Of a DNA stretch of 64,000 bases, positions 14,092 to 35,772 are shown in pieces. The number at the start of each line of letters is the position of its first letter. Position 1 is the stretch's first letter. The position numbers were made by a program, and so were the translations under genes. Origin of the DNA: Chitinophaga vietnamensis (GTDB lineage: Bacteria > Bacteroidota > Bacteroidia > Chitinophagales > Chitinophagaceae); the NCBI RefSeq assembly GCF_902167635.1, contig NZ_CABHMS010000003.1:248001-312000 (forward strand), given 5' to 3'. Under the pieces are notes generated by a model. The model was given only the letters and a program-made list of their open reading frames with translations. It ran no database searches and was not told the DNA's origin.

Positions 14092-14706
14092 ATGATACGC
14101 ACTGCTTTGGAATTTATTAAAAAGGAACTGGAATCCTATATAGTGGAAAGAGAGCAGGACCCTGCTACCTATTACGCCGGCGGCGTAGTGGACATCAAGC
14201 CACTGGCACTTCCCAATGGTACCATCAATCTCGACGACACGATGCATGTTACCATCATGCTGGTAGGCGTAGAGGAGTTGAGGAGAGAAGGGAAGCGCCC
14301 CTATTATATTCCAGCCGATGATAAAAGCTATTACCGTTTGCAGCCGCCGATAGAGCTTGAGCTATCGCTGCTGCTGGTAGCCAATTACAAGAACTATGAA
14401 ACTTCCCTGCGCGATCTGTCGGATGTAACGGCGTTCTTCCAGGCTAACCCCATCTTCGATGCACAAACATACCCGGCATTGAACGCCAGCGTAACATCTC
14501 CCGATACCAAGCCATGGCAATTGATAGACCGCCTCAGCTTCCGCCTGTGCAGCCTTTCATTCGAAGCGCAGAATAACCTCTGGGGCATGCTCGGCGTGAA
14601 ATACCTGCCCAATGCCGTATACAAAATGAGCCTGCTCACCGTATTCGATACTAGAGGCAAAGACAAAGCAGGCGCTGTTACAGAAGTTAACTATAAAGAA
14701 AACTAG
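14092..14706 (+). CDS. eCIS cap / tube-terminator protein (Pvc16-like, DUF4255)
   Basis: A 204-residue protein whose first 170 residues fit the DUF4255 family. It opens MIRTALEFIKKELESYI, then has INLDDTMHVTIMLVGVEELRRE and YRLQPPIELELSLLLVANYKNY. In Photorhabdus virulence cassettes and antifeeding prophages the corresponding Pvc16/Afp16 protein caps the distal end of tube and sheath and sets particle stability. It is the first gene of the sixteen-gene operon, and the next gene starts 7 bases after its stop. It is soluble, without signal peptide, as expected for a particle assembled in the cytosol. Confident as a family call; the role is by homology. Confidence 0.85.
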   Translation: MIRTALEFIKKELESYIVEREQDPATYYAGGVVDIKPLALPNGTINLDDTMHVTIMLVGVEELRREGKRPYYIPADDKSYYRLQPPIELELSLLLVANYKNYETSLRDLSDVTAFFQANPIFDAQTYPALNASVTSPDTKPWQLIDRLSFRLCSLSFEAQNNLWGMLGVKYLPNAVYKMSLLTVFDTRGKDKAGAVTEVNYKEN

Positions 14707-14713
14707 TATTGTT

Positions 14714-15901
14714 ATGAGCGGTTTGCAAATCAAATATGATCCATTGCTGCAAGTGGGCATACAACAGCTTTATTACAAGAATAATGTTTGCCCCAAGTAT
14801 ACCGTCACGCCGGAACTGGATATCCTCTGTACGCCTACTTCGGAGTGCATTGCACTGATGAATAAACTGGATATGGTATTCCGCCCTTCCGGTATCAGCG
14901 GCGGATTTGCAGTGCTGGCCAGGGTTTCAGGGAAGAACGGAGGCGGCAGCGACCTGCTGCGCTTTGCTCCCGGCGCATTCGCCAAGCTCTCCTTCTGGAT
15001 GTTTGCCAGCAATCCCGAACTGCTCAACTTCAACGACCTGCCCCTGCAACCTGCTTCCAATCAGCTTTATTATTTCAGCAATGGCGTAACGGATAACGCT
15101 GCGCCAAGGAATAACCTGCACATCACGGTAGATAGCGGCGGCGTGAAAGGCAGCAATGATCTTGTCAACTATTCCGGCGCCAGCTACTCATTCCGCAACA
15201 GCGCGCCCGTAGTGCCGGGCACCACGAAAGTGAAGCATCGCCTTACCGGCGCGGAACTGCAGCCCACGGCCATTCTCAACGATCTTACTTTCGGAGATGT
15301 AAAATATAACCTGCTGCCCTTGCCCTCCGGTATCTGTGATCTCTATATCGGCGGCATCGTAAAAGATACTTTTTATTATGCGGTGGGATTGCCTTCGCAA
15401 CCGGTGTTGGGCGTGATCGAACTGTCGCTTTCCAGTCTGCTGCCAGCCAACTACCGCGTGGTGGAACCCGACCGCTCATTGAATGCGCCGGCGCCGCAAT
15501 ATATGATCAGCTTCAACCGCCGCAAAACGCGCTGGCGCTACACTTTCAGCATGACGGCCAACAGCCCGCTGGCACTGGAAATGGCGGCATTGTCGCCCGC
15601 CAGCAAAACTGATTTTCTCAGTAAACTGAATGTAGTCAGCAATGATACCGGCATCACCTTCAAGCAGGGCCTCGTGTCTGATACCGCGATAGAATTTATT
15701 TCTGTCAATCCCTTCGACCTGCAGGAAGTGTATGTATCTGCTTCGAGTCCTACCCACGATCAGCTGGGGCTCTCGCTGAAAAAATATATTGGCGATCCGA
15801 AAGAGGCCGTGGTACGGGCTGATCTGCCATATCCATCTACCAGTACCGTCAATAATCTGCAAGCTCCTTTTATCTATTCAGACATATTTCTAACACTTTA
15901 A
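14714..15901 (+). CDS. Uncharacterised eCIS-associated protein
   Basis: A 395-residue protein I do not recognise. It has no signal peptide and looks mostly beta, with many short strands and turns (SGISGGFAVLARVSG, ELQPTAILNDLTFGDVKYNLLPLP). A basic patch, NRRKTRWRYTFSM, lies near residue 270. Position is the best clue: it lies between the cap gene and the sheath gene, 7 and 10 bases from them, so it is almost surely a particle component or assembly factor. A cap adaptor or a surface-exposed decoration would fit this position. An extra cap-associated protein is known in the Algoriphagus eCIS, but I cannot show homology. Confidence 0.6.
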   Translation: MSGLQIKYDPLLQVGIQQLYYKNNVCPKYTVTPELDILCTPTSECIALMNKLDMVFRPSGISGGFAVLARVSGKNGGGSDLLRFAPGAFAKLSFWMFASNPELLNFNDLPLQPASNQLYYFSNGVTDNAAPRNNLHITVDSGGVKGSNDLVNYSGASYSFRNSAPVVPGTTKVKHRLTGAELQPTAILNDLTFGDVKYNLLPLPSGICDLYIGGIVKDTFYYAVGLPSQPVLGVIELSLSSLLPANYRVVEPDRSLNAPAPQYMISFNRRKTRWRYTFSMTANSPLALEMAALSPASKTDFLSKLNVVSNDTGITFKQGLVSDTAIEFISVNPFDLQEVYVSASSPTHDQLGLSLKKYIGDPKEAVVRADLPYPSTSTVNNLQAPFIYSDIFLTL

Positions 15902-15911
15902 CTTTTCAAAA

Positions 15912-17354
15912 ATGGCAACTTATCGTTCCCCAGGTGTTTATGTAGAAGAAATATCACTCCTGCCACCCTCCATCGCAGAAGTGGAATCGGCTGTCCCGGC
16001 CTTTGTGGGTTACACTGAAATAGCCACCTCCATTGTTACAGATGATCTGCTCAATGTGGCAACGCCCATCAACAGCTGGGGCGATTTCAAGCAACTCTAC
16101 GGTGGCCCCGCACCCGAAGATCATTCTCACATCACCATCGCAGTGGATGAGATCCGCCCTGCTACCGTTACTACCAGCTACAAAGTGACCATCACACCGG
16201 ATTACAGCAACATGTCGAAATACCTGTTGTACTATGCTGTGCAGAACTTCTTTGCCAACGGTGGCGGCAGATGCTACATCGTGTCCGTGGGCAAGTACAG
16301 CACGCCTATCGCAGAAGCAGACCTGGAAAGAGGTTTGAACCTGGTAGCGCTGGAAGATGAACCTACCATACTGGTAGTACCTGAAGCAGTGCGGCTCGGC
16401 GCTACAGACTATACCAAGATCGTACAGCAGATGCTCAACCAGGCTTCCAGCCTTGGCGACCGCTTTGCCATCCTGGATACCCTGCAAACAACCGTACCTA
16501 AAACCACCACTTCTATCGCTGCCGATGTGAAAACATTGCTGGATGCAGTGCCCATCGATGAAAATATCCGTCGCTATGGGGCCGGTTATTATCCGTTCCT
16601 GCAAACAGTGTATCCACTGGGCTTCGCATTTGCTTCCCTCACGCTCACCACGCATACGATCAATGGTGGCGCGCCCGGCGCAGAAGACAAGACCGGCAAA
16701 ACCATGGATCAGCTGAAAGCTACTGCTTCCGCCATGTATGCTGCCATCCAGCAGGAATATGGCAAGTACACGATGGTACTGCCGCCATCCGCCGCTATGG
16801 CAGGTGTTTATAGCCGTGTAGATGCCGACAGGGGCGTATGGAAAGCCCCCGCCAACGTGGGTTTGATGGATGTGGTGAAACCACTGGTATCTATCTCACG
16901 CCCTGAACAGGATCTCCTCAATATCAATACCGACACCGGAAAATCTGTGGATGCCATCCTCAGTATTCCCGGCGCAGGCACCGTGGTAATGGGCGCCCGC
17001 ACACTGGACGGTAATAATAATGAATGGAAATATATCAACGTACGGCGCTTCTTCAGCGTGGTGGAAGAATCTGTGAAGAAATCTTCCAACTGGGTAGTAT
17101 TCGAACCCAATACCTCCGCTACCTGGACCAAGCTGCAATCCATGATCGAAAATTACCTCTACCTGAAATGGCGCGATGGCGCACTGGCCGGCGCAAAACC
17201 GGAACAGGCCTACTTCGTGAACATCGGGCTGGGCAAAACCATGAACTCCGTGGATATCCTCGAAGGCCGCCTCATCATAGAAATTGGTATGGCCGTAGCA
17301 AGACCTGCGGAATTTATCATCCTCCGTTTTGAACAGATGTTACAAACATCCTGA
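15912..17354 (+). CDS. eCIS contractile sheath protein (Pvc2-like)
   Basis: A 480-residue phage-tail-sheath-family protein. The N-terminus, YRSPGVYVEEISLLPPSIAE, is the usual sheath opening, followed by VPAFVGYTE. The C-terminal domain has VFEPNTSATWTKLQ and a closing stretch with GMAVARPAEFIILRFEQ, the beta-strand handshake region that links subunits. It forms the contractile cylinder around the tube. There is only one sheath gene here, whereas the Photorhabdus PVC operon has three (Pvc2, 3, 4). The sheath must therefore be a homopolymer, like those of AlgoCIS and MAC-type systems. A 56-bp gap before the tube gene is one of the larger ones in the operon. Confidence 0.95.
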   Translation: MATYRSPGVYVEEISLLPPSIAEVESAVPAFVGYTEIATSIVTDDLLNVATPINSWGDFKQLYGGPAPEDHSHITIAVDEIRPATVTTSYKVTITPDYSNMSKYLLYYAVQNFFANGGGRCYIVSVGKYSTPIAEADLERGLNLVALEDEPTILVVPEAVRLGATDYTKIVQQMLNQASSLGDRFAILDTLQTTVPKTTTSIAADVKTLLDAVPIDENIRRYGAGYYPFLQTVYPLGFAFASLTLTTHTINGGAPGAEDKTGKTMDQLKATASAMYAAIQQEYGKYTMVLPPSAAMAGVYSRVDADRGVWKAPANVGLMDVVKPLVSISRPEQDLLNINTDTGKSVDAILSIPGAGTVVMGARTLDGNNNEWKYINVRRFFSVVEESVKKSSNWVVFEPNTSATWTKLQSMIENYLYLKWRDGALAGAKPEQAYFVNIGLGKTMNSVDILEGRLIIEIGMAVARPAEFIILRFEQMLQTS

Positions 17355-17410
17355 TAAACGAACCCCGTAACGCAATTAAAATTCTTTTTATCATTTAAAC
17401 AGCAAATACA

Positions 17411-17845
17411 ATGGCAAAATATCCTTTACCGGTTTTCCATTTCACGGTATCATGGGGTGGAGACAATATAGGATTCTCAGAAGTAAGCGGTCTTTCGCAG
17501 GAATTGCAGTCGATCGATTACAGAGACGGACTGATGTCCGGCACTACCTTACCGCTGAAAAGGCCGGGGCTCAAGAAAGCCGGCAATATCACCTTGAAGC
17601 GTGGTTATACCGAAACGAACAATGACTTCTATAAATGGCTGAACAATAACGGTAACCCGAATGTGGAACGCCGCGACCTGGTGATCTCTTTGCTGAACGA
17701 CGAAGGCGCACCGGTATTTATCTGGACCGTTACCCAGGCATGGCCCGTGAAGATCGACGGCCCCGGCCTGAAAGCTTCCGGCAATGACATCGCGATAGAA
17801 TCTATCGATATCGCGCATGAAGGAATCACCCTTAAAACACCATAA
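17411..17845 (+). CDS. eCIS inner-tube protein (Pvc1/gp19-like)
   Basis: A 144-residue tube protein. Signature elements: PLPVFHFTVSWGGDNIGFSE, VSGLSQELQSIDYRDG, an LKRG hairpin, FYKWL, and a closing IESIDIAHEGITL. Such subunits form stacked hexameric rings that are expelled through the contracting sheath. It is 3 bases upstream of a second, longer tube-type gene. By length and closeness to the standard gp19 fold, this copy is the likelier main tube subunit. Confidence 0.92.
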   Translation: MAKYPLPVFHFTVSWGGDNIGFSEVSGLSQELQSIDYRDGLMSGTTLPLKRPGLKKAGNITLKRGYTETNNDFYKWLNNNGNPNVERRDLVISLLNDEGAPVFIWTVTQAWPVKIDGPGLKASGNDIAIESIDIAHEGITLKTP

Positions 17846-17848
17846 GGA

Positions 17849-18316
17849 ATGCCTACCTATTATCCGCCGACCTGTTTTCATTTCAAGGTGGAATTTGTTG
17901 GTGTGGATGGCGCGGATTCCGACACAGAGCAACGGTTCCAGGAAGTCAGCGGGCTTTCCTTTGAAGTAGAAACAGAAGAGATGCGCGAAGGCGGTGAAAA
18001 CCGCTTCGTGTACAAACTGCCGAAAAGGGCCAGGTATCCCAACCTGGTGCTGAAACGCGGCCTGCTGAAAGGAACCAAACTGCTGGACTGGTTCAGGAAG
18101 GCGATGAACACGTATTTCACGGTAGTGGTATATGATTTCAAGCCGGCAGATATCACGATCACCTTGCTGGATGAAGCCGATCAGCCAGTGGCCATCTGGA
18201 ACGTCGTACAGGCGTACCCGTTAAAGTGGAGCACCTCTGATCTCAAAGCCAGCGAAAATGGCATCGTGGTAGAAACCCTCGAAATGGCCTATCAATATTT
18301 CGAACGTAAACTGTAA
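17849..18316 (+). CDS. eCIS tube-initiator-type protein (Pvc5-like, gp19 family)
   Basis: A 155-residue paralogue of the preceding tube protein: FHFKVEFVGVDG, FQEVSGLSFEVETEEMREGG, a lysine-rich KLPKRARYPNLVLKRG hairpin, WFRKAMNTYF, and LEMAYQYFERKL at the end. In PVC and AFP the second tube protein (Pvc5/Afp5) forms the first tube ring on the spike. This gene's place between the tube and the LysM hub genes fits that. It begins 3 bases after the tube gene, so the two are probably translationally coupled. Confidence 0.88.
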   Translation: MPTYYPPTCFHFKVEFVGVDGADSDTEQRFQEVSGLSFEVETEEMREGGENRFVYKLPKRARYPNLVLKRGLLKGTKLLDWFRKAMNTYFTVVVYDFKPADITITLLDEADQPVAIWNVVQAYPLKWSTSDLKASENGIVVETLEMAYQYFERKL

Positions 18317-18320
18317 AGCT

Positions 18321-18482
18321 ATGCCGGTACAGATCAATGAAGTGATCATCAAAACCGTGATAGACCCGCCAGGCAACAGCAGCGGCAGCGGCACACCCGT
18401 GGCATCGCCGCAACCCAGCGGTAAAGACACGGAAGTGGTGGAGAAAGTATTGGAAATTATCAGGGAAAAAAATGAAAGATAA
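18321..18482 (+). CDS. Small DUF5908-type eCIS protein (Pvc6 position)
   Basis: A 53-residue protein. It starts MPVQINEVIIKTVID, has a Gly/Ser/Pro-rich middle, and ends in a charged helix (EVVEKVLEIIREKNER). This size, layout and position between the second tube gene and the LysM gene match the DUF5908 proteins at the Pvc6 position of many eCIS operons. Their role is not settled; binding to the hub during baseplate assembly is a fair guess. It starts 4 bases after the previous stop. Its TAA overlaps the ATG of the next gene (TAATG), supporting its reality. Confidence 0.85.
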   Translation: MPVQINEVIIKTVIDPPGNSSGSGTPVASPQPSGKDTEVVEKVLEIIREKNER

Positions 18483-19162
18483 TGGATACGCAAAGCGCAG
18501 CCAAACTGCCTTTTAACCTCAAGATCATTCCTGTCAACGACAGCCTGATCCCCATCGGGGTGCCATTCCTGGCCATGTTCAACCCCGATTCGGTGGCGAT
18601 CAAAGAGGATATCGACTGGATACCCGCCTCCGCACCAGGAAGGGCCGGCACCGAACATAAATACCAACGCACCAAGGCCCGTACCTTCTCGCTGGAATTT
18701 ACGATCGACGGCACCGGCGTGAACACCAACGGCGTCAAGATACCCGTGTTTGCGCAGATCGCGCTGTTCAGAGCCGCCACCACCGTGATGAACGGCCTGC
18801 TACACCGCCCCGCATCCCTGCTGGTACAGTACGGCCTCTTCATCTGCAATTGCGTGATGAACAGCTCCACCGTCACCTACACCATGTTCGACCTAACGGG
18901 ATTGGCTATACGCGCTAAAGTGAGTGCATCATTCACCGAAGTAACGCCATCATCTTTAGGCAGCATCCTGGGCATGCTCTCTTCTCCCGACCTTACCCAC
19001 CGCAAAATAGTGAAAGAAGGAGATCTGCTGCCATTGCTCACTTACCAGGTGTATAACAACCAGGACTATTACCTCCAGGTTGCCAAAGTAAACAAGCTGA
19101 AAAATTTCAGGAAGCTGGAAGCCGGCGCCACGCTGGTATTCCCGCCGATCGGAACCAAGTGA
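18482..19162 (+). CDS. eCIS baseplate hub protein with LysM-like end (Pvc7-like)
   Basis: A 226-residue protein. The N-terminal 150 residues (LPFNLKIIPVNDSLIP, then LAMFNPDSVAIKEDIDW and LEFTIDGTG) match the family of Pvc7/Afp7-like hub proteins. The last 50 residues look like a LysM fold: LPLLTYQVYNNQDYYLQVAKVN, a KLKNFRKLEAG turn and FPPIG. In T4 terms it is like gp53 plus a LysM piece, fixing the tube initiator to the spike. The start overlaps the stop of the 53-aa gene by one base. The spike gene follows 30 bases later. Confidence 0.88.
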   Translation: MDTQSAAKLPFNLKIIPVNDSLIPIGVPFLAMFNPDSVAIKEDIDWIPASAPGRAGTEHKYQRTKARTFSLEFTIDGTGVNTNGVKIPVFAQIALFRAATTVMNGLLHRPASLLVQYGLFICNCVMNSSTVTYTMFDLTGLAIRAKVSASFTEVTPSSLGSILGMLSSPDLTHRKIVKEGDLLPLLTYQVYNNQDYYLQVAKVNKLKNFRKLEAGATLVFPPIGTK

Positions 19163-19192
19163 GCCATTTCAATATCGCAAACAAGCCATCGC

Positions 19193-20824
19193 ATGTTAGA
19201 CAGTTTACCTCCCGGCACCGCAAAAGCCACCAACCAGGTGACCAGCAAAGTATTGCTGAACGGCACGGAACTGAGTGGTGAAATACTGCTTACGCAGATC
19301 ATCATCAACCGCTCGTTCAACAAGGTCGCCTACGCGAAAGTGGTGCTGCTGGACGGTTCCGCCTCCGGCAGAGATTTTCCGCTCAGCAACGATGACCGCT
19401 TCAAACCCGGCAGCGAAATAGAAATACAGCTGGGATACATGGGCAGCGCCGACACCGTATTCAAAGGCGTGATCGTGAAACACGGCATCAAAATATGGCA
19501 GGAGGGAACATCCGTGCTCATGCTGGAAGCAAAAGACAAAGCCATCAAACTCACCGGCGCACGCAACCGCCGCTATTTCATCAACCAGGCCGACAGCGAC
19601 GTGATCAGCACGCTCGCATCCGAATTCTCCGCTGATGTAGATAGCACCAACGTTACGCACAAACAACTCGTACAGTTTGACGCCACCGATTGGGATTTCA
19701 TCGTTACCCGCGCAGAAGCCAACGGTATGTTTGTGCTCACCGACGATGGTAAACTGGTGGTGAAGAAGCCTGCCCCCGGCAGCTCCGTGCTTACCGCTAC
19801 TTACGGCGATAACATATTCGAGTTCGAAGCGGATATGGATGCCCGGCGACAGATACAACAGGTCACGAGCCAGTCGTGGGACTATACGAAACAAAGCGCT
19901 GAAACCTCGCATGATGGCAGCTCTTCCTTCTCCGACAATGGCAACCTCTCTGCCGATGATCTGGCATCGGTACTGGGCGCTACGCTGTTGCTCAGTCATA
20001 CCGGCCATCTCAATCAGGATCAGCTGAATGATTGGTCCGATGCCTATGCATTGCGCAACCATCTTTCAAAGATCACCGGCCGCGTACGGATCGAAGGCAA
20101 CGCACAACTCAAGCCAGGCAGCGTGATCACGCTGGCCGGCGTGGGCGACCGCTTCAACGGCGATGTATTCGTAACTGGCGTGTTGCACCAGTTCGATGGC
20201 AACTGGCACAGCGATGTGCAATTCGGCTGGCGCGAAGAGTGGTTTTATAAAAAAGAAGACGTGATGGACAAGCCCGCATCAGGCCTGCTGCCCGGCATCA
20301 ACGGGCTACAGATAGGCGTGGTGCTCGATGTGAACGATACCGATGAAGGAGGGCAGTATCGCGTGAAGGTACATGTGCCGATGATCAACACCGGTAATGA
20401 AGGCATCTGGGCAAGAGTATCTACGCTGGATGCCGGACCGCAACGGGGATCTTACTTCCGGCCACAGCCCGCTGATGAAGTGCTGCTTGGTTTCCTGAAC
20501 GACGATCCCCGGGAAGCTATTGTGCTCGGCTATCTGCACAGCAAAGACACGAACAAGTCGCCTTTGCCGGAGCAGGACGGACAAGAACAATACGGCTTCG
20601 TTACCAAATCAGGCATCAAGCTGGTATTCGACGATACCAACAAACGCATGACACTGTTGGTGCCTGGCGGGGACGATGGTAAATCTTTTATCATCAACAA
20701 TGATTCCGGTGCGATAGAAATCAAAGATGATCATCAGAACAGCATCAAGATGGATAGTTCCGGTATCACGATAGAATCCGGTGCTAACGTTACCATCAAA
20801 GGTCAAAAAGTAATGATCAATTAA
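19193..20824 (+). CDS. eCIS spike protein (VgrG/gp27-gp5-like, Pvc8)
   Basis: A 543-residue spike. Residues about 15-350 are gp27-like (late-control-D type): VLLNGTELSGEILLTQIIIN, RFKPGSEIEIQLGYMG, LEAKDKAIKLTGARN and DATDWDFIVTRAEANG. An OB-fold (about 362-450) follows, with LQIGVVLDVNDTDEGGQYRV and RPQPADEVLLGFLND. The final 90 residues are repetitive and beta-rich (IEIKDDHQNSIKMDSSGITI) and would form the trimeric needle. There is no extra C-terminal toxin domain, so cargo is probably carried elsewhere. The PAAR gene for its tip follows 10 bases downstream. Confidence 0.93.
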   Translation: MLDSLPPGTAKATNQVTSKVLLNGTELSGEILLTQIIINRSFNKVAYAKVVLLDGSASGRDFPLSNDDRFKPGSEIEIQLGYMGSADTVFKGVIVKHGIKIWQEGTSVLMLEAKDKAIKLTGARNRRYFINQADSDVISTLASEFSADVDSTNVTHKQLVQFDATDWDFIVTRAEANGMFVLTDDGKLVVKKPAPGSSVLTATYGDNIFEFEADMDARRQIQQVTSQSWDYTKQSAETSHDGSSSFSDNGNLSADDLASVLGATLLLSHTGHLNQDQLNDWSDAYALRNHLSKITGRVRIEGNAQLKPGSVITLAGVGDRFNGDVFVTGVLHQFDGNWHSDVQFGWREEWFYKKEDVMDKPASGLLPGINGLQIGVVLDVNDTDEGGQYRVKVHVPMINTGNEGIWARVSTLDAGPQRGSYFRPQPADEVLLGFLNDDPREAIVLGYLHSKDTNKSPLPEQDGQEQYGFVTKSGIKLVFDDTNKRMTLLVPGGDDGKSFIINNDSGAIEIKDDHQNSIKMDSSGITIESGANVTIKGQKVMIN

Positions 20825-20834
20825 AAAAACGATA

Positions 20835-21125
20835 ATGCCATTTGCAGCAAGAGTAAACGATAATCACGTTTGTCCGGCATCAACCGGCACGGTAGCGCAT
20901 GTAGGCGGTCCGATACTATCACCGGGTGTGCCTACGGTATTGATCGGCGGGCAGCCTGCTGCCACCGCAAATAGCCTGTGCACCTGTACTGGCGCTACAG
21001 ACAGCATTACGACAGGCTCCCAGACGGTATTGATCGGCGGCCTGCAAGCAGCGCGGGTGAATGATCCTACCGCACATGGTGGCTCCATTATGACGGGATG
21101 CGAGACGGTAATCATTGGCGGATAA
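20835..21125 (+). CDS. PAAR-motif spike-tip protein (Pvc10-like)
   Basis: A 96-residue PAAR protein, nearly all repeats of short strands and Gly turns: HVGGPILSPGVPTVLIGG, TVLIGGLQAARVND and CETVIIGG. Candidate metal ligands are His and Cys in NDNHVCP, CTCTG and DPTAHGG. It should fold as a cone that sharpens the tip of the VgrG-like trimer and may carry effectors. It has no extension domain. It sits 10 bases after the spike gene and 10 bases before the gp25 gene. Confidence 0.93.
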   Translation: MPFAARVNDNHVCPASTGTVAHVGGPILSPGVPTVLIGGQPAATANSLCTCTGATDSITTGSQTVLIGGLQAARVNDPTAHGGSIMTGCETVIIGG

Positions 21126-21135
21126 CATTTAAAAA

Positions 21136-21561
21136 ATGAAAGACATGCAAGATATAGACAGATCTTTTTTGGGAACAGGATGGAATTTCCCTCCCACCTT
21201 CCGCAGGGAATGGTATGGCGTAGAAATGGTGAGTGCAGAAGAAGATGTGCATAACAGCATCAGGATCATCATCGCTACCATCACCGGCGAAAGGGTGATG
21301 CTGCCTGCCTACGGCTGTAACCTGCAACCGCATGTATTTGACCAGATGAATGTGCCCAATGTGGCGATGATCCAGAAGATTGTGAACGATGCATTGGTAT
21401 ATCATGAGCCGCGCATCATCGTGAACAGCGTTGATGCAGTGCCCGACCAGCTGGATGGCGTGCTGAATATCACCGTGGAATATACCATCATCACCACCAA
21501 CACCCGGTACAATTACGTCTTCCCGTTCTACATGCAGGAAGCCACCAATGTTGCGCACTAG
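21136..21561 (+). CDS. Baseplate wedge protein, gp25-like (Pvc9)
   Basis: A 141-residue gp25/lysozyme-like-fold wedge protein. It has GTGWNFPPTF at the start, EEDVHNSIRIIIATITGERVM with the conserved Glu-initiated core, LPAYGCNLQPHVFDQM and the closing YTIITTNTRYNYVFPFYM. In contractile systems gp25 joins the sheath to the wedge. The family is present in T4, R-pyocins, T6SS (TssE) and eCIS. The neighbours on both sides are baseplate genes, so assignment is firm. Confidence 0.93.
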   Translation: MKDMQDIDRSFLGTGWNFPPTFRREWYGVEMVSAEEDVHNSIRIIIATITGERVMLPAYGCNLQPHVFDQMNVPNVAMIQKIVNDALVYHEPRIIVNSVDAVPDQLDGVLNITVEYTIITTNTRYNYVFPFYMQEATNVAH

Positions 21562-21599
21562 TACTTTGACGGCAGCAAAGCCATAAAATAATTTTTGAG

Positions 21600-26042: not shown

Positions 26043-26073
26043 AATAACTCGTAATGACTAAAATATTTTCTCC

Positions 26074-29000: not shown

Positions 29001-29583
29001 CCAACGCATCCTGGACTTGCAGGAATTTGGTTCCGAAAGGATCAATTACGAAATCGTGTCCAATGGCAAGGATGAATCCACCGGCGTGAAATATAAATTC
29101 GTTATCCATGGCGCCAAAGGTGCTGTGCTGGCGCAAAGCGCTTATCTCTATAATCAAAAAACGCAGTTACAACAGCAACAGGGCGTAACGATCGATGATG
29201 ATATTGAAGACGAGATTGCAGGATTGATGACCTTTTTCAGTTATGAAATGGATTGGTACTGCAAGGCCAATCCCTGCGACAACGACGAAGATCCCTATTC
29301 TTTCCGGACCACCGTGGTGCTGCCTTGCTGGCCCAAACGCTTCAGGGACCTGACTTTCCGCAATTTCGTGGAAAAGACCATCCAGACAGAGTTTCCCGCT
29401 TATGTGCAAACGAAGATCGTATGGGTGGGCATCAACGAGATGAGCAAATTTGAACAAGCCTATAAAGACTGGCTCCTCGAAATGGCGCAAACAGAACTGC
29501 CTGGTTATGAAAAAACAAATCCATTAGTGGACGCCATCAATAACCTCGAAGGCTGCGGCGCCTGCGACGACAATTGTGATTAA
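26074..29583 (+). CDS. Giant baseplate protein (Pvc12/gp7-like)
   Basis: A 1169-residue protein in the Pvc12 position. The N-terminus (YNALRKQGIKYIEMLSSDIWTDYNFSDPGITILEAVCYAITDLGYR) is typical of Bacteroidota eCIS wedge proteins. A long charged coiled-coil insert spans about residues 167-250. Cysteines occur in clusters: HHCSCEGDAPELCYG (about 143-158), LDTCLGLCD, YCKANPCDNDED, and the very C-terminus GCGACDDNCD. Together with the preceding gene product it should build the six baseplate wedges. It begins 31 bases after the previous stop. Subunit role is by order and partial motif match. Confidence 0.83.
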   Translation: MQTPVSLNKSNPLLPAEDYNALRKQGIKYIEMLSSDIWTDYNFSDPGITILEAVCYAITDLGYRSGFELGDLLAPEHLADDTWKEIFYTARQILHNNPLTITDYRKLLLDIKGIRNAWIEPAKEYEVPLWMDYNTVSVKEHHCSCEGDAPELCYGKLGVTAVTADQVQANRTKEKTDFDQQITRIDGELARLQQRIADLKVALSNHDIDPTTRAELTQKQADAQKEVDKLNALKEVLQRAENYLTATVAPPKIVELEGLYRVMIEYEEDVLAEDHRENIRTQAMDRLLRHRNLCEDFLSVDAVEYQDEGLQAYIELEEYADPDEVVAQLFFTVYKYFSPSIPFYTIGQMIDKGFQVDEIFEGPALKHGFMVDADVENTDLFRDIRLSDIINEVSEISGVKAITYLHIPADEKSGKDSRYFADWVEALGRERKIARIRPDLSKVLCCKQRDLITYNMGQASDRRPARMLKIFEDLKKLERKYKLEGQQVDFPVPAGEYMELENYYPVTYSLPMCYGVSDRAGLPGNATEKQKIQALQLRGYLMFFEQLLKGHLVQLNHLRDLFRFDNTVKHTYFTKPLPATEYQNLADLLINFGNHPADHKDDIIKDFAGALQSITESPETFLQRRNTFLNHMLARFSEDLTEYETLTRWLTPAHVDEKLINDKIRMLQNGEYIHISSDRGKGYNYADQTVWDTANVSGAERRVSRLLGFANANRRSLAPDSITSEPVMVPNEKTKVPEWKVNKRGQHINVVKLVDTEHNNTVLLTSVEVADGCCTDELMSDILANADIRLHYRFHDDLKQRSRKTAGQLGSFWFELYDGPDPSTAVLLATGERFENKNLREAAFKKIQQLIARINANEGLHLVEHLLLRPRIDVMYNDGDPATQIQPSLLDTCLGLCDVNIGTDENTGKPVYWKKITRIPAEKCYDKMPWVLEYYRLRKNKTSGKDEPLSVLFQETFTDEKQLPHLLKFRLYSNMTQRILDLQEFGSERINYEIVSNGKDESTGVKYKFVIHGAKGAVLAQSAYLYNQKTQLQQQQGVTIDDDIEDEIAGLMTFFSYEMDWYCKANPCDNDEDPYSFRTTVVLPCWPKRFRDLTFRNFVEKTIQTEFPAYVQTKIVWVGINEMSKFEQAYKDWLLEMAQTELPGYEKTNPLVDAINNLEGCGACDDNCD

Positions 29584-29600
29584 CCCGATAAACCATTACT

Positions 29601-31049
29601 ATGTCTTTACACGTAGTGAACCGGCTGCAATTCATGACCAACTGCTACGATGAAGAGCAGGCGCTGAACCTGCGGCACAACTTTGCCCTCACCTTACAGG
29701 ATCAGGTGATGGCAGCGCTGGACAAAGTTTGTTCTCGCTACGTGGGGGATGATGAGTTTATCCGGATCGACAAACTGGAAATCGACCTGGGGCATCTCAG
29801 CGCGCATGCTTTCTCGCGCGATTTTGAGCAACTGTTCACCGCTCGCCTGGAAGCCGCTATCAGTAAGGAATTGGCGGCTATGCCGGCAGGAGAGCGGAGC
29901 GCGGCTGCGCAGCTATCGCGCATAGAGATACTGCAATTTTTCCTTAGCCAGGGCGTGTTGCCCTGGTGGGCCGAACAACCTGATTTTCGCTTGCCTGACG
30001 TAGCCGCCACCGTATTGCTACAGCAGCCGGCAGCCATGAAACAGTGGCTGGGCGCACGCCGCAGCGAACAAAATATATGGACGAGGATCACCTGGCAACT
30101 GCCGCAGGAAGTAAAATCACTGATCATTTTTCAGATGGAAGAACTGATCGCCGCACAGGAACAACTGGTAGCCACCCTGGTACAAATGCTGATACAGGCC
30201 GCCGCCAGCGGCAAGATCAGCATAAACGGCACGCCTGCGCTGCTGCAACAACAGATCATCGCCGCTGCCGGCCCGCTCCTGGACGATATCATACTGGCAA
30301 ACGCAGTGTACATCTTCCAAACATCTTCCATTGATCTCATCCAGCAAAAAATATTCAGCACCTATGCCCAACCTTTATTTGCAGCATTGCCGTTTACTAT
30401 TCCGGATGCATTGATCGCGGAGCTATTGCAGGCATTGCCTGTGCCCGCCGCTGGTGATGTATCGCCTGAAATGCCCGCTGCACCGCTTCCTGCAACAACA
30501 GGCGCCGACGATTTGTTAAATAATTTATTCCGGCAAGATGAAGAGGTGATAGAGAAGATCGCGGTGCGGCATGCGGGTGTGGTATTGCTGACGCCATTCC
30601 TCAAGCAATTGTTCAGCACCCTGTCGCTGCTGGAAGGAAAGGATTGGAAAGACAAGGAATCGCAATACAAAGCCATACACCTGTTGCGTTTCCTGGCCAC
30701 CGGCGAAACGATGGCGCCGGAATATAACCTGGCCCTGGAAAAGATCTGCTGTGGTTTGTCGCTCGATGAGCCGATACCCCTGGAAACCGCGCTGGACGAC
30801 AATATGAAGGCAGAAGGGGAGGCGCTGTTAAGTTCGGTGATCGAGCATTGGCAGCTGTTGAAAAATACTTCTGTGAACGGGCTGAGAACATCGTTCCTGT
30901 GCCGCGACGGGCTGTTGTCGCGCAAAGATGGCGGCTGGCTGTTGCAGGTAGAACAGAAAACGCTGGATGTGCTGCTGAGTGGTATCCCCTGGGGATACTC
31001 CACGATCACGCTCTCCTGGAATCCTTATCTGATTTATGTAGAATGGTAA
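29601..31049 (+). CDS. Contractile injection system tape-measure protein (Pvc14-like)
   Basis: A 482-residue protein. Residues 1-90 carry the hallmark of the CIS tape-measure family: VVNRLQFMTNCYDEEQALNL, then a run with RIDKLEIDLGHLSAHAFSRD. The end, LLSGIPWGYSTITLSWNPY then LIYVEW, is the family's closing motif. The middle is helical and Gln/Leu/Ala-rich (QEQLVATLVQMLIQAAAS), as expected for a rod inside the tube that sets particle length. It has no Cys cluster. Ten bases separate it from the ATPase gene. Confidence 0.88.
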   Translation: MSLHVVNRLQFMTNCYDEEQALNLRHNFALTLQDQVMAALDKVCSRYVGDDEFIRIDKLEIDLGHLSAHAFSRDFEQLFTARLEAAISKELAAMPAGERSAAAQLSRIEILQFFLSQGVLPWWAEQPDFRLPDVAATVLLQQPAAMKQWLGARRSEQNIWTRITWQLPQEVKSLIIFQMEELIAAQEQLVATLVQMLIQAAASGKISINGTPALLQQQIIAAAGPLLDDIILANAVYIFQTSSIDLIQQKIFSTYAQPLFAALPFTIPDALIAELLQALPVPAAGDVSPEMPAAPLPATTGADDLLNNLFRQDEEVIEKIAVRHAGVVLLTPFLKQLFSTLSLLEGKDWKDKESQYKAIHLLRFLATGETMAPEYNLALEKICCGLSLDEPIPLETALDDNMKAEGEALLSSVIEHWQLLKNTSVNGLRTSFLCRDGLLSRKDGGWLLQVEQKTLDVLLSGIPWGYSTITLSWNPYLIYVEW

Positions 31050-31059
31050 AATAACGTAT

Positions 31060-32469
31060 ATGGAACAACGGACAGGTAACCGGATCAATATGAATGCACA
31101 GAGCCTGGCGCTGGAAATCGCCTGGTTTGCCCGCGTGGTGAATGCGCGGCTGCGCACCTATTTTGGCTCGCAGCAACTCACAGATGTAGCGGTAGTGGGT
31201 GGCGGCAAATCCATCATCAACGGTAATGTGGTAGCAGAGGAAGATCTTACCCCGCCTGACTTTACGAATGATCAATCTGTATACGCGGAATTTGTACAAT
31301 ACTATAAACTCACCCGCGATGAGCGCCTGTTACTGATGCTCACCATTATCCCGCATGTGCAACCGCACCTGCTGGATGTATTTTTTTCTGTCAACAAAGC
31401 GCTTGCGCGTGGCTATACGGAGTTTGGCGGCATCAAGGGGAGCCGCCACAGTGGCTTCATCCCAACGGTAGAAACGGCGCTCTTCGTACTGGCGGGCAAT
31501 GACCTGGCTGCCAGGTTTGCCTTGTACCGTCTCTTTGAACCAGATCACATCTTCTCCGCACATAATATTATCGCTATCGATAACAGTCAGGGAACAGAAC
31601 CCTTTTACAGCAGTGTGATCAGCCTTTCGGCAGAATATGTAGATTTTTTTACTACCGGCAACCTGCGCAAACCGCAGTTCAGTCTTGAGTTTCCGGCGAG
31701 GCGCCTCGTTACGCGCATGGACTGGGACGACCTGGTGGTAGATGACCTCACCGCATTACAGCTCGATGAATTGCGTATATGGCTCAAACATGGTCATACC
31801 CTGTTTGAAGACTGGGGCATGAACCGCAAGCTGAAACCCGGCTACAAAGCGCTTTTCCACGGCCCGCCCGGAACAGGCAAAACGCTCACCGCCGCACTGC
31901 TCGGGAAACTGTATAATCTCGATGTGTACCGCATCGATCTTTCGATGGTGATATCAAAATACATTGGCGAAACAGAGAAGAACCTCGAAAAAGTATTTGC
32001 CAAAGCAGAAAACAAAAGCTGGATACTGTTCTTCGATGAAGCAGATGCCTTGTTCGGCAAACGTACCAGTATCAGCGATGCGCACGACAAATATGCCAAC
32101 CAGGAGATCGCTTACCTGTTGCAAAGACTGGAAGACTATCCCGGCCTGGTAATCCTGGCATCCAATATGCGCAATAATGTAGACGAAGCATTTGTGCGTC
32201 GTTTGCAGAGTATCATTCATTTTCAGAAGCCACAGCCACGGGAGCGCCTTCGCCTCTGGAAGAGCGCTTTCAGCAAGGAATGCATACCGCCCGACGATCG
32301 CGCTATGGAGCGTATTGCGCACCAGTACGAGCTTTCCGGCGGCTCCATCATCAATGTGGTGCAGTTCGCCTCCTTGCAGGCATTGAACCGGCAGGACAAT
32401 AAAATTACTGTTGAGGATCTTGTACAGGGGATAAAGAAAGAATTCAGGAAAGAAGGAAAAACCGTTTGA
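31060..32469 (+). CDS. AAA+ ATPase of the eCIS (Pvc15-like)
   Basis: A 469-residue single-ring AAA+ ATPase. Walker A is GPPGTGKT at 268-275. Walker B is ILFFDEAD at 322-329. The second region of homology and arginine finger lie near RNNVDEAFVRRLQSIIHF, and a C-terminal helical lid follows. The first 220 residues form a family-specific N-domain. Pvc15/Afp15-type ATPases are conserved in eCIS operons and are needed for particle assembly or cargo loading. This is not a ClpV: there is only one AAA module. It sits 3 bases upstream of the DUF4157 gene, a usual pairing of loader and cargo. Confidence 0.93.
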   Translation: MEQRTGNRINMNAQSLALEIAWFARVVNARLRTYFGSQQLTDVAVVGGGKSIINGNVVAEEDLTPPDFTNDQSVYAEFVQYYKLTRDERLLLMLTIIPHVQPHLLDVFFSVNKALARGYTEFGGIKGSRHSGFIPTVETALFVLAGNDLAARFALYRLFEPDHIFSAHNIIAIDNSQGTEPFYSSVISLSAEYVDFFTTGNLRKPQFSLEFPARRLVTRMDWDDLVVDDLTALQLDELRIWLKHGHTLFEDWGMNRKLKPGYKALFHGPPGTGKTLTAALLGKLYNLDVYRIDLSMVISKYIGETEKNLEKVFAKAENKSWILFFDEADALFGKRTSISDAHDKYANQEIAYLLQRLEDYPGLVILASNMRNNVDEAFVRRLQSIIHFQKPQPRERLRLWKSAFSKECIPPDDRAMERIAHQYELSGGSIINVVQFASLQALNRQDNKITVEDLVQGIKKEFRKEGKTV

Positions 32470-32472
32470 GAT

Positions 32473-34974
32473 ATGTCAGCACACGATACCGCCGCAATGC
32501 AGCCTGCATCCCCCGTGCCGGCTGCGCAAGCTGTTACAGAAAGCAAGCATGAACTCGGGCAGGAACCGCAGATGATGCGGCTGCCCTTGCAGTTCCGGTT
32601 GTCGGTAGGCGCCGTCGACGATCCGCTGGAAGCCGAAGCCGATGCGATGGCCGACAAGGTCATGCGCATGCCCGATCCCATGTTGATCCAGCGGAAGTGT
32701 GCGCACTGTGAAGCAGAAGAGCAGGTGCAACGTATGCCTGTGGCTAATTTCATCCAGCGTAAATGCGCACATTGCGAGGAAGAAGAGAAGACCGTGCGGC
32801 TCAAGCCCATGGATAGTTTCCTGCAACGCAAATGTGCGCATTGTGAAGAAGAGGAACAAAAAATACAGCGCAAAGCAGATGGCGGCGACAGCGTGGTGAG
32901 CAATGATACCGGCAATGCCATAGCGGCCACGCGCGGCCTGGGCAGCGCCCTGCCCGATGATACCCGCACTTTTATGGAAACCCGCTTCGGTACCGGGTTT
33001 GAAGATGTGCGCATCCATACCGGCGACTATGCCACAAAATTATCAAACGAATTAAGCGCCCAGGCCTTTACCATCGGCAATGATATTTATTTCAATAGCG
33101 GCAAATTCTCTCCGTCGTCAGATAGCGGTAAACACCTGCTGGCGCATGAATTGACGCACACGATACAGCAGGGGGGTAGCACTGCCCGCCGGAAGCCTGG
33201 TTTTCGTACATCCGGCGCCGTTATACGGCGTACACCGCTGGCGCACTCATGTGACTCGGCAGATATAATGGCTGCACCTGCACCGGTGCGTGAACAGAAC
33301 TATTCACAACCGCAGGAGACAGGCTGTGAGAACCGGCGCAGAGCAGTTTTGCCGAATATCACAGATGGGCAAACGGAGACTACGCCCTATGTTATCCGTC
33401 TGTTGGTAGAGTGTCCTTGCCGTAACAGGGGAACCGCTGCTACAGGCACTTTCTGGGACCCTGATGCGAATAATTTCGCCATTGCTTTCAGTTATTGCCA
33501 GGGGCGAGGCAGAGCGGATCTTTATGCAGGGCTGTCAAATCTCGCCAACTCACTGTCGAGCGGATCAAGGCTCGCCGTTACCGGAAGAGCAGGCGTATCC
33601 GGTACCGTTGCCACGCGGCATATTACTATTAACGCCAGAGGAGAGGCGCAGGCGACCAACGAAGGCGCTGGAAGTATTCCTGAAGGAACGCCAGGTGTAG
33701 GTGGAATGCTCAGTTTTTCTTTCGAGCAGCAAGATGGCGCACAGATCCATGTTTCCGTGAGCATTGCTTATATAAGAAGATTGGGATTGCCTGATAATGC
33801 TGATCCTAACGAGGTAAGAGGCGCTTTGCTAATCGGTAATCCTCAGCTTCAGTTTCAGCTGGGCGTTACGCACACAGGTAATCCAGGTGGTGATAACCGG
33901 CGCGACAACAGCGAAACTGCTATAACGGGTGGACTCAGTGGAACATGGGAACATATACAACGTCCTGACTGTTACAATTGTAAATGTCCGCCGCCACATG
34001 CAGTATATGAGTGTATTGACTTCGTACCTGACAGAGAGGTACCGGATGAAGATTATACTATACATCCATCTTCTGATATCAATATATATTTTCACTATGA
34101 TAGTATCGCTGCACCGGAAGAAAGCACCTTGCAACAGGAGAATAACCGCAACCTCCGCCTGATAAATGATCAGGTGCGGGCAGGCGCGCGGCTCTTGCTG
34201 ATCCGCGGTTTCGCTTCGCCGGAGGGAAATGAGCGGGATCATAACCATGATCTTTCCGAAAGAAGGGCCGGAAGAACGGCGCAGTTGGTGAGGGAAACGA
34301 TCAACAACCCGAACGTGTTCATCCCTGTTCCATATGCCGGAGATGAGTTGCTGGGGCACACCCCTGCCGCAACACCCAACAGCAGGTTGGGGGATATTAT
34401 CACGGCCAATGGTTTCAGGTCAGCAGAAGATCTGTCGATGCTATTGACAGGGCCTGAAATAGCCAACAGGGATCTGTCTGCACAGTTTCTGTCCCTGTTC
34501 AGGGCTATCCCTGATCCGGATGATCGCTTAGCGCTTTTCGGTCTGAGATCCGATAGTCCGATTGCGCGCAGGGTACTTACTTCCATCACCGCGTTTGAAG
34601 CATCCGGCGGACGTGGTTATCGGCCATGGGAAAATGTATTCAGGTTATTGAGAGTGGGTATCGTACGCGTAGAACGTACAGAGGTAGTGCATCCTACTAC
34701 CACGCATACGCAACGAGGTAGTGTCAGTGAGCCAGGGCGCTCGGTTTGTGATGAAAGAGCCAGGCAGGCGGAGGCCCGGAACTTGTTTGGCCCGATAGGA
34801 ACTTCCCGTAAAACAGATGCAGAAGCAAGAGCTGAATGCGCAGAGCGGGGTGGCGATGAGCCTGAAGGCTGCAACTACCGCATGGGAAGGCCGCGCTTTA
34901 CTCCCGGCAGATTGCCGGCGCCAGTGTTGTCTCCTTTCAATCCCGTCCCGATCGGACAACCAGCACAACAATAA
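32473..34974 (+). CDS. DUF4157 protein with CxxC repeats and OmpA-like domain: candidate eCIS cargo
   Basis: An 833-residue protein. Order: an acidic opening with ADAMADKVMRMPD; three 22-23-residue repeats with (I/L)QRKCAHCEEEE (about 70-140); a DUF4157 domain (about 156-236) with HELTH at 225-229, a zinc-metalloprotease-like motif; a beta-rich middle with more Cys (CPCRN, CYNCKCPPP); an OmpA-like peptidoglycan-binding segment (about 530-625; IYFHYDS, RGFASPEGNE, LSERRAGRT); and a tail of unknown fold. DUF4157 is a marker of eCIS-linked effectors and is thought to steer or process cargo. Being 3 bases after the ATPase gene supports this. No recognisable toxin domain is seen. Confidence 0.82.
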   Translation: MSAHDTAAMQPASPVPAAQAVTESKHELGQEPQMMRLPLQFRLSVGAVDDPLEAEADAMADKVMRMPDPMLIQRKCAHCEAEEQVQRMPVANFIQRKCAHCEEEEKTVRLKPMDSFLQRKCAHCEEEEQKIQRKADGGDSVVSNDTGNAIAATRGLGSALPDDTRTFMETRFGTGFEDVRIHTGDYATKLSNELSAQAFTIGNDIYFNSGKFSPSSDSGKHLLAHELTHTIQQGGSTARRKPGFRTSGAVIRRTPLAHSCDSADIMAAPAPVREQNYSQPQETGCENRRRAVLPNITDGQTETTPYVIRLLVECPCRNRGTAATGTFWDPDANNFAIAFSYCQGRGRADLYAGLSNLANSLSSGSRLAVTGRAGVSGTVATRHITINARGEAQATNEGAGSIPEGTPGVGGMLSFSFEQQDGAQIHVSVSIAYIRRLGLPDNADPNEVRGALLIGNPQLQFQLGVTHTGNPGGDNRRDNSETAITGGLSGTWEHIQRPDCYNCKCPPPHAVYECIDFVPDREVPDEDYTIHPSSDINIYFHYDSIAAPEESTLQQENNRNLRLINDQVRAGARLLLIRGFASPEGNERDHNHDLSERRAGRTAQLVRETINNPNVFIPVPYAGDELLGHTPAATPNSRLGDIITANGFRSAEDLSMLLTGPEIANRDLSAQFLSLFRAIPDPDDRLALFGLRSDSPIARRVLTSITAFEASGGRGYRPWENVFRLLRVGIVRVERTEVVHPTTTHTQRGSVSEPGRSVCDERARQAEARNLFGPIGTSRKTDAEARAECAERGGDEPEGCNYRMGRPRFTPGRLPAPVLSPFNPVPIGQPAQQ

Positions 34975-34986
34975 AAATATCATATC

Positions 34987-35772
34987 ATGGCGGTACAACT
35001 CACACCAGCCTTGGCTGGAGAATATCAGCAGCTCTTCGATAGCTGCATCATTACGGCCAGTAAGTATTCCACTGTGGATAGTTTGCTCGACAGGATGATG
35101 ACGGGGAAAGACCGTTATGTGACGGTAGGCGATCCCCTGGGCATTCCCTGGTATTTTATTGGCATCCTCCATTGCCTGGAGGCGGGCTTTAATTTCAATA
35201 CGCACTTACACAATGGCGATCCGCTGACGGCGCGTACCGTGCATGTGCCGAAAGGCAGGCCATTGGTGGGCGATCCGCCTTTTACCTGGGAAGAAAGCGC
35301 CACCGACGCGCTCACCATGGAAGGTTTTGTGGGGCAGCAGCAATGGGGCGTACCCAATATGCTGTATGATTTTGAACGTTATAATGGCTTCGGCTACCGG
35401 GCCAGGGGCATCAACTCACCTTACCTGTGGGCTGGCTCGCAACATTATACGGCCGGCAAATTCACTGCTGACGGCGTTTTTGACCCGAATGCCGTTTCTA
35501 CACAGATCGGCGCCGCCGTACTACTCCGACGTATATACGAAAGACAGTGGGTACAATCGCAAACCGATGTGGTATCGCAGGTAAAGGCGCTGGGTGCACA
35601 AGTGCCTTTCGATCCCAACACCTACAACGATCAGGCATTGCAGCTGCAATCGTTGCTGAATACCCTGGGGATGAACCTGCGTGAAGATGGCTATGCCGGC
35701 AACAGAACATCCGGCGCTTATCAGCATGTTACCGGATCATATTTGCAGGGTGATCCGAGGAGCAATAGTTAG
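34987..35772 (+). CDS. Muramidase-like / peptidoglycan-binding protein (COG5526-like)
   Basis: A 261-residue protein without signal peptide. The core GIPWYFIGILHCLEAGFNFN, then THLHNGDPLTARTVHVPKGRP, is characteristic of phage-type lysozyme-family proteins (COG5526), with E65 as the likely catalytic Glu. The last 60 residues resemble a peptidoglycan-binding domain (LQLQSLLNTLGMNLREDG). It is the last gene of the eCIS operon, 12 bases after the DUF4157 gene. It may help the particle cross or leave the cell wall, for example by releasing particles through lysis, or may itself be delivered. It converges with the stress-protein gene, the two stop regions overlapping by 4 bases. Confidence 0.78.
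   Translation: MAVQLTPALAGEYQQLFDSCIITASKYSTVDSLLDRMMTGKDRYVTVGDPLGIPWYFIGILHCLEAGFNFNTHLHNGDPLTARTVHVPKGRPLVGDPPFTWEESATDALTMEGFVGQQQWGVPNMLYDFERYNGFGYRARGINSPYLWAGSQHYTAGKFTADGVFDPNAVSTQIGAAVLLRRIYERQWVQSQTDVVSQVKALGAQVPFDPNTYNDQALQLQSLLNTLGMNLREDGYAGNRTSGAYQHVTGSYLQGDPRSNS

Follow-up and report, generated by a model that had tools for sequence, protein, structure and literature searches.

Within a 64,000-nucleotide stretch of the genome of Chitinophaga vietnamensis, probably a soil bacterium (contig NZ_CABHMS010000003.1, positions 248,001 to 312,000; hereafter the window), an initial annotation made from the letters alone had described a complete same-strand operon for an extracellular contractile injection system (eCIS) with one sheath gene and no recognisable tail fibre gene. 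We analysed this operon, which occupies positions 14092-35772 of the window. It consists of 16 open reading frames (ORFs), all on the + strand, each intact and at coordinates that agree with the initial annotation; the sheath and tube genes are free of frameshifts. The intergenic gaps measure 3-56 bases, and there is one short overlap, of the DUF5908 stop codon onto the next ATG.

The first gene (14092..14706) encodes the cap protein (Pfam Pvc16_N, E value 8.7e-26; values given in this form below are also E values). It is followed by gene 2 (14714..15901), by the sheath gene (15912..17354), which matches Phage_sheath_1C (2.6e-12) and Phage_sheath_1 only under the cut-off of that model, and by two gp19 genes, one for the inner tube protein (17411..17845) and one for a second tube protein (17849..18316), with Pfam E values for the pair of 1.2e-38 and 5.3e-43. 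A small protein of 53 aa (18321..18482; DUF5908, 9.4e-14) stands where the spike plug (Cis6/Alg6) would be expected, an equivalence assigned by position. The next protein, previously called a LysM hub, is a Cis7-like CIS_tube protein (18482..19162; CIS_tube, 8.6e-29), and after it come the VgrG-like spike/hub (19193..20824; Phage_base_V, 6.8e-18), the PAAR tip (20835..21125; PAAR, 1.4e-20) and the gp25-like sheath initiator (21136..21561; gp25, 8.3e-22). The giant baseplate protein Cis11 (21600..26042; 1480 aa) and the gp6/gp7-like baseplate protein Cis12 (26074..29583; 1169 aa) are without a Pfam family of their own and were identified through their best solved relatives, which belong first to the contractile injection system (CIS) of Anabaena and then to AlgoCIS of Algoriphagus machipongonensis: All3317 (7b5h; 8.8e-127) and Alg11 (2.5e-100) for Cis11, All3315 (4.1e-108) and Alg12 (1.5e-98) for Cis12. 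The operon continues with the tape measure (29601..31049; CIS_TMP, 4.9e-114), a Cis15-like AAA+ ATPase (31060..32469; AAA, 2.8e-26) and an eCIS_core/DUF4157 protein (32473..34974; 5.5e-30), a putative cargo, in which an OmpA-like stretch at residues 548-602 scores under the curated cut-off. It ends with a gene for an accessory peptidoglycan-binding-like protein (34987..35772), which is not conserved in the subtype operon described below.

Gene 2, one of the candidates for target recognition in the initial annotation, matches All3326 (7b5i; 5.9e-10), presumably the cap adaptor of the Anabaena system, and its match to the AlgoCIS cap adaptor (0.64) is not significant. By this similarity gene 2 is probably a Cis16B-like cap adaptor, and we rejected it as a recognition protein.

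Judged by these matches, the 16 genes are a complete CIS of the type of AlgoCIS and the thylakoid-anchored CIS (tCIS) of Anabaena, as had been claimed. Sheath, tape measure and Cis11 each have one match in the C. vietnamensis genome, so that the claim of a single sheath gene holds for the genome as well as for the operon. No phage-like protein, capsid or terminase was found among the 21 flanking proteins scanned, a subset of the flanking ORFs, and Cis12 matched none of 50,697 phage records. Papers are cited here by PMC number, and what is said of them refers to excerpts of their text. AlgoCIS (PMC8894135, PMC13314943) shares with the window the cap, the single sheath, the plug-position gene, the spike, PAAR, gp25, the Cis11 cage, Cis12 and DUF4157 cargo. 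Its Cis11 is shorter (1050 aa), and the N-terminal part of the window protein aligns to tCIS and not to Alg11. The closest solved relatives of the window Cis11, Cis12 and probable cap adaptor are those of tCIS (PMC8894136). Photorhabdus virulence cassettes (PVC) and the antifeeding prophage (Afp) are alike in overall plan, with weaker homology of Cis11 and Cis12; unlike the window they have Pvc13/Afp13 fibres.

Fibre genes and the fibre-less subtype

eCIS have been reported in 89% of Chitinophaga (PMC8213781), so the system as such is not new. In our sample of 79 genomes of the genus, the tape-measure family occurred in 74 and a Cis11 match likewise in 74. A close Cis11 group (51-67% identity, aligned over the whole length or as two long segments) was confined to eight of the 79, C. 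vietnamensis included, and the Cis11 matches in the rest of the sample were more distant and shorter. A contig scan with an alignment of the eight close proteins yielded 20 named loci, all of the same subtype: eight in Chitinophaga, two each in Mucilaginibacter, Taibaiella, Dyadobacter and metagenome-assembled genomes (MAGs) of Chlorobiaceae, and one each in Segetibacter, Niabella, Flavihumibacter and Ferruginibacter, which makes eight genera and the Chlorobiaceae MAGs. Seven of the eight Chitinophaga loci are the same as in the genus sample, and the named loci of highest identity (54-56%) are among the Chitinophaga ones. Members of the subtype include C. niastensis, C. dinghuensis and C. rupis.

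All 20 loci have a common order of 15 genes: cap, cap adaptor, sheath, first tube, second tube, DUF5908, CIS_tube, spike, PAAR, gp25, Cis11, Cis12, tape measure, AAA and DUF4157. The cap adaptor went undetected in one locus (L096), and both cap and cap adaptor in another (L099), whose contig starts inside the operon. The profiles behind this comparison covered + strand frames; since part of their sequences came from these loci, the presence counts do not stand independently of the profiles. The recurrence of the order in 20 loci excludes chance for the operon. In a sample of 395 genomes of the phylum, 73 had a Cis12 match, and seven of these belonged to the subtype: C. vietnamensis and six recognised by long matches at 47-58% identity. 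In a tree of the Cis12 core (82 rows), the 24 subtype rows were separated from all others by a branch with SH-aLRT support of 100. The nearest branch (support 91) holds L152, L156 and G029b, joined by long branches that were flagged as unsure; L152 and L156 are, by our own assignment, loci like those of the Bacteroidales injection systems (BIS).

Two fibre families serve the related systems. The first is a gene located between those of Cis12 and the tape measure, with a product of ~650-1,500 aa. It matches the 1,443-residue chain of 9wt0 (9.9e-51), which from its length would be the AlgoCIS fibre Alg19, and All3314 of tCIS (1.5e-42), which from its 18 copies would be the crown. The second is a gene of ~260-580 aa between Cis11 and Cis12 with a shared N-terminal motif and, in both examples scanned, an S74 chaperone domain; we label it EBAP2-type after PMC12923769, an assignment of ours made without the models of that paper. 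Among 44 non-subtype CIS loci that we fetched from the genus, part of those existing in the 79 genomes, 37 carry a fibre gene of either family (15 Alg19-type only, 16 EBAP2-type only, six both), and the seven with neither make up what we call type E. Fifteen non-subtype loci fetched from the phylum sample include 11 with an Alg19-type gene (by BLAST homology) and two with an EBAP2-type gene; the remaining two are L153, with a 1,119-aa gene at the fibre place, and L158, which looks disrupted. None of the 20 named subtype loci has a match to either family in its + strand frames, and the same is true of the + strand of the stretches fetched for three further subtype loci of the phylum sample that are not copies of the named ones. 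The window system thus belongs to a monophyletic subtype with one gene order and without a detected fibre gene.

Profiles of both families were also run against whole genomes at E<=1. The Alg19-type profile (A4; rows from G078, G035 and G090) matched in nine of 24 genomes, in one of them as noise (G360, 0.456). It recovered all six genomes chosen for having the gene, of which three had supplied rows, and its independent detections were G022, G248, G331, G063 and G052. Only the last two are among the 13 subtype genomes, and there the matches lie on the contigs with their second CIS; the C. vietnamensis genome has no match to this Alg19/crown-type profile. The EBAP2 profile (A6; rows from G074, G035, G360 and G142) matched in 13 of 21 genomes, independently in G029, G044, G062, G064, G012, G049, G078, G090 and at a second place in G035 and G074. 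In the subtype genomes G029, G044 and G062 the match is on the contig of a second CIS, and in G064 (C3:1047507) and G012 (C9:171928) it is a 207-aa frame that lies apart from the CIS and has an EBAP2-like N-terminus. The profile found nothing in C. vietnamensis (G000), G063, G052, G126, G283, G279, G286 and G327. In C. vietnamensis a profile of small genes from BIS-like loci (A5) gave only weak short matches (best E 0.02). The absence of a fibre noted in the initial annotation therefore stands for the operon, and in the genome for the two family profiles; a search for adenovirus-type shafts gave no signal in any genome, nor in the controls, and is uninformative. Classical fibre-aimed eCIS carry a fibre gene of a known family; AlgoCIS has Alg19, and no such gene was detected for the window system. 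As a separate observation, short and long EBAP2-like frames lie side by side in G078:C2 and G035:C1.

The seven type E loci of the genus (L178-L183, L080) have no separate fibre gene and an approximately doubled Cis12 of 1,935-2,165 aa. On the tree they group with fibre-bearing systems whose Cis12 has 2,204-2,426 aa, so their loss of the fibre is likely to be separate from that of the subtype.

The Cis11 cage and Cis12

The cage region of the window Cis11 comprises residues 411-960 (22830..24479). A cage profile matches All3317 (1.1e-26) and Alg11 (7.6e-16) with its distal part unaligned; by these matches the cage is homologous to the cages of both proteins. PVC are called cage-less (PMC13314943). 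At a core identity of 0.65-0.75, cage identity was 0.36 in the subtype (125 pairs) versus 0.53 in fibre-bearing systems (36 pairs). We also compared the ratio of log identities of cage and core in pairs that use each sequence once and are not fully independent in descent. The median was 3.01 in the subtype (n=11) versus 1.82 in fibre-bearing systems (n=20; p=0.0006), 3.45 versus 1.78 for the distal half of the cage (p=0.0002), and 3.01 (n=9) versus 1.82 (n=11) when core identity was restricted to 0.55-0.90 (p=0.001). The two groups did not differ in a control region of Cis11 (p=0.26) or in the gp7-like region of Cis12 (p=1). Relative to the core, the subtype cage thus diverges ~1.7 times faster than that of fibre-bearing systems. 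Type E had a cage identity of 0.33 (eight pairs, core identity 0.55-0.65).

In four close pairs, the ratio of nonsynonymous to synonymous substitution rates (dN/dS) was 0.04-0.20 for the cage, with one value not computable, and 0.01-0.03 for the core; two of the four pairs are near or beyond dS saturation. Invariant residues occur within the cage. Taken as a whole, the cage is subject to purifying selection and yet changes rapidly, and both relaxed constraint and diversification fit; with dN/dS below 1, positive selection is not shown.

All 24 subtype Cis11 proteins have a cysteine at aligned positions 404-436 plus one at 1326-1345, a combination present in none of 50 fibre-bearing and none of seven type E proteins; the chance of a cysteine in a random 33-residue stretch of a subtype Cis11 is 0.19. 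In the window these are Cys420 (22857..22859), near the place of Alg11 C268, and Cys1332, Cys1336 and Cys1337 (25593..25610), near the place of Alg11 C1000. The C268-C1000 disulfide of Alg11 joins cage and iris, and a mutant without it did not fire (PMC13314943). The low-complexity C-terminal tail of Cis11 (residues 1401-1480; 25800..26039) is variable in relatives. We rejected the C-terminal PSTPRSILVSVP motif as subtype-specific, a similar stretch being found in Alg11, and the tail as a basic tether in general, its net charge ranging from -13 to +12.

Cis12 differs from Alg12 by an additional insertion at about residues 136-250 (26479..26823), by eye a charged helical hairpin. The insertion has 87-158 aa in all 24 subtype proteins, at most 21 aa in 49 of 51 fibre-bearing proteins and at most 13 in all seven of type E. 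The two fibre-bearing exceptions (G023, G060) carry 166-168 residues of different-looking sequence at this place. A C-terminal cysteine cluster (C1161, C1164 and C1168 in the window; 29554..29577) occurs in 23 of 24 subtype proteins versus 0 of 58 others.

No clear transmembrane stretch was seen in the 16 proteins, the highest 19-residue Kyte-Doolittle mean being 1.62, in Cis11. The part of tCIS All3315 that contacts the membrane, which lies between the aligned regions, has no counterpart in the window Cis12 alignment, and the crown (Cis19) family has no match; Anabaena Cis13 itself was not searched. The thylakoid-like anchoring considered in the initial annotation was rejected because of the missing crown-family match and the lack of a clear transmembrane stretch.

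Proposed recognition and triggering without a fibre

For AlgoCIS it has been proposed that the fibres bind, the cage opens after a possible second binding, the ring expands and the sheath contracts, and that the cage needs a second receptor (PMC13314943). For the first of these steps we found no protein in the window system, and the proteins of the later steps are present, with cysteines retained near the linking ones; hence we propose the cage as the element of recognition and triggering. Our preferred reading, to which we give a probability of roughly 0.4, is that the operon would encode a particle of the AlgoCIS/tCIS lineage, from a fibre-less clade, whose Cis11 cage now performs both tasks. 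The earlier suggestion that another protein recognises the target is retained in this form: of the proteins that remain, the giant Cis11 is the strongest candidate, and gene 2, as the probable cap adaptor, drops out.

Under this proposal, the closed cage around the spike would make contact with the target first, and it alone would do so. Target binding would open the cage, whose movement would pass through the link between cage and iris to the baseplate ring and on to the gp25-like initiator, and contraction of the sheath would push the tube, loaded with DUF4157 cargo, into the target. Compared with the two sequential steps of AlgoCIS, the fibre-binding step would be gone and the cage-binding step kept. 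By analogy with other eCIS, release would probably occur when some of the producer cells lyse. In the absence of fibres, which in AlgoCIS bridge neighbouring wedges, the ring may be stabilised by the Cis12 insertion. DUF4157 proteins have been reported as cargo of AlgoCIS (Cgo1 and Cgo2; PMC8894135). Among 28 cargo-type proteins >300 aa of the relatives we scanned ten, and all ten have eCIS_core; one has an endonuclease domain, one an annexin domain and one a peptidoglycan-binding domain. In view of these varied domains, the targets may be varied.

Extended to the clade, the proposal is a shade more tentative than for the window itself: a group of CIS in Bacteroidota and Chlorobiaceae would have dispensed with fibres, the baseplate cage serving as receptor-binding organ and trigger in a one-step firing that places the diversifying part in the ring, and type E would have reached a solution of its own independently. 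The aiming of such particles is attributed to their fibres, and a conserved fibre-less clade amounts to a natural deletion experiment. It bears on the question of whether AlgoCIS-type cages act as a second receptor and trigger of firing. It also narrows the necessary role of the fibre, given that loci without one retain the baseplate, the putative plug, the probable cap adaptor, the tape measure and the putative cargo. Provided that the cage binds targets, its natural variants would reveal on which surfaces these bacteria act. Fibre-less CIS have already been reported, in Streptomyces and in gut BIS with Aasi_0556. In a largely open-access, preprint-free literature we found no description of this clade, of the Cis12 insertion or of the cage divergence, which is weak evidence that fibre loss as a clade-wide trait is undescribed; the fibre catalogue of PMC12923769, as excerpted, places loci without fibre candidates outside its scope.

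Several points weigh against a recognising cage. The three independent pairs of type E gave ratios of 1.68, 2.18 and 2.03, that is, no clear excess in another group without a fibre gene. The fast divergence may reflect relaxed constraint, with dN/dS far below 1. The cysteines were matched to Alg11 C268 and C1000 by flanking alignment only, the stretches themselves being unaligned, and AlgoCIS, which has a fibre, has the cysteine pair too, so the pair is no marker of fibre loss. Finally, the nearest branch of the tree holds BIS-like loci, which are perhaps cell-bound.

This last point leads to the idea of a cell-anchored, contact-dependent system resembling BIS or the subtype iv type VI secretion system (T6SSiv), which we consider unlikely. 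The baseplate would be tied to the envelope of the producer through a membrane partner, perhaps by way of the Cis12 insertion, the cysteine clusters or the Cis11 tail, and the fibre of a free particle would be unneeded. The T6SSiv of Amoebophilus and gut BIS resemble the window in having neither Cis13 nor an Alg19 fibre, as far as described in PMC12210884, and tCIS is anchored through extensions of Cis12 and Cis13 (PMC8894136). L152, L156 and G029b carry a small EBAP2-type gene, and two of the three have no detected DUF5908, which fits the gut BIS, reported to be without Cis6 and to have an Aasi_0556 homologue (PMC12210884). The window, however, has DUF5908, and its genome gave no strong match to proxies for the small EBAP2-type gene, with nothing at E<=1 for A6 and short matches for A5; Aasi_0556 itself was not searched. 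The lack of a clear transmembrane stretch in the 16 proteins and the long, unsure branches that join these loci to the subtype also argue against anchoring.

A cytosolic system acting on the producer cell would likewise need no fibre and is in keeping with our finding none. The CIS of Streptomyces (PMC10066040, PMC12237407) has no typical tail fibre either and stays in the cytoplasm (PMC10066040). Streptomyces, however, encodes the membrane protein CisA beside its baseplate genes, and no CisA-like gene was seen in the window operon; a fast-diverging cage would moreover be unexpected if the internal target were constant. We therefore regard this explanation as improbable.

Doubtful to the same degree is a fibre of an unrecognised family that is encoded elsewhere and joins the baseplate. 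Our searches covered some fibre families, and G064 and G012 show that a subtype genome can hold a 207-aa EBAP2-like gene on another contig. C. vietnamensis itself has three S74-domain proteins elsewhere (L199, L200, L201; ~660-900 aa) with similar N-terminal halves. These have signal-peptide-like starts and no match to the EBAP2 profile, and are possibly exported surface proteins; setting them aside as CIS fibres because of these starts is a judgement of ours. In addition, profile searches of this genome found neither of the two families on which most other sampled loci of the genus rely. A decaying or inactive locus might explain a fast-diverging cage and a missing fibre, but it is very improbable given the intact genes, the single gene order in 20 loci across several genera, the core dN/dS of 0.01-0.03 and the invariant residues of the cage.

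The final gene, the flanking genes and the tape measure

Searches of Pfam, NCBIfam, PHROGs and PDB gave no match for the final gene of the operon, which does match plasmid genes annotated 'peptidoglycan-binding protein'. Its family is present in 13 of the 79 genus genomes, C. vietnamensis included, and by coordinates it does not lie beside a CIS in the others; the gene is an add-on to the operon. The family has a conserved core, HLHNGDPLT...GRP...PPF...ESA.DA (window gene and L123-L133), and also occurs on plasmids, both rhizobial and other, in one case with the annotation DNA/RNA non-specific endonuclease.

A universal stress protein gene (35769-36584, - strand) converges on the end of the operon, and a similar protein is encoded directly downstream of the subtype operon in G064. 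Upstream, 547 bases from the operon, lies the gene of a 1,455-aa chitinase (9177-13544) with two GH18, four Big_7 and two CBM_5_12 stretches and a Por secretion tail match under its cut-off; we rejected it as a fibre, since it is a secreted-type enzyme.

Conservation of the tape measure falls below that of most structural genes: its identity to seven relatives in the genus is 36-51%, and the corresponding range for cap, sheath and tubes is 65-89%. Elsewhere in the genus, in other CIS types (e.g. G059:C32 and G023:C25), the CIS_TMP match is split into at least two pieces within one frame of ~780-1,440 aa, which indicates that the tape measure is much longer in those types.

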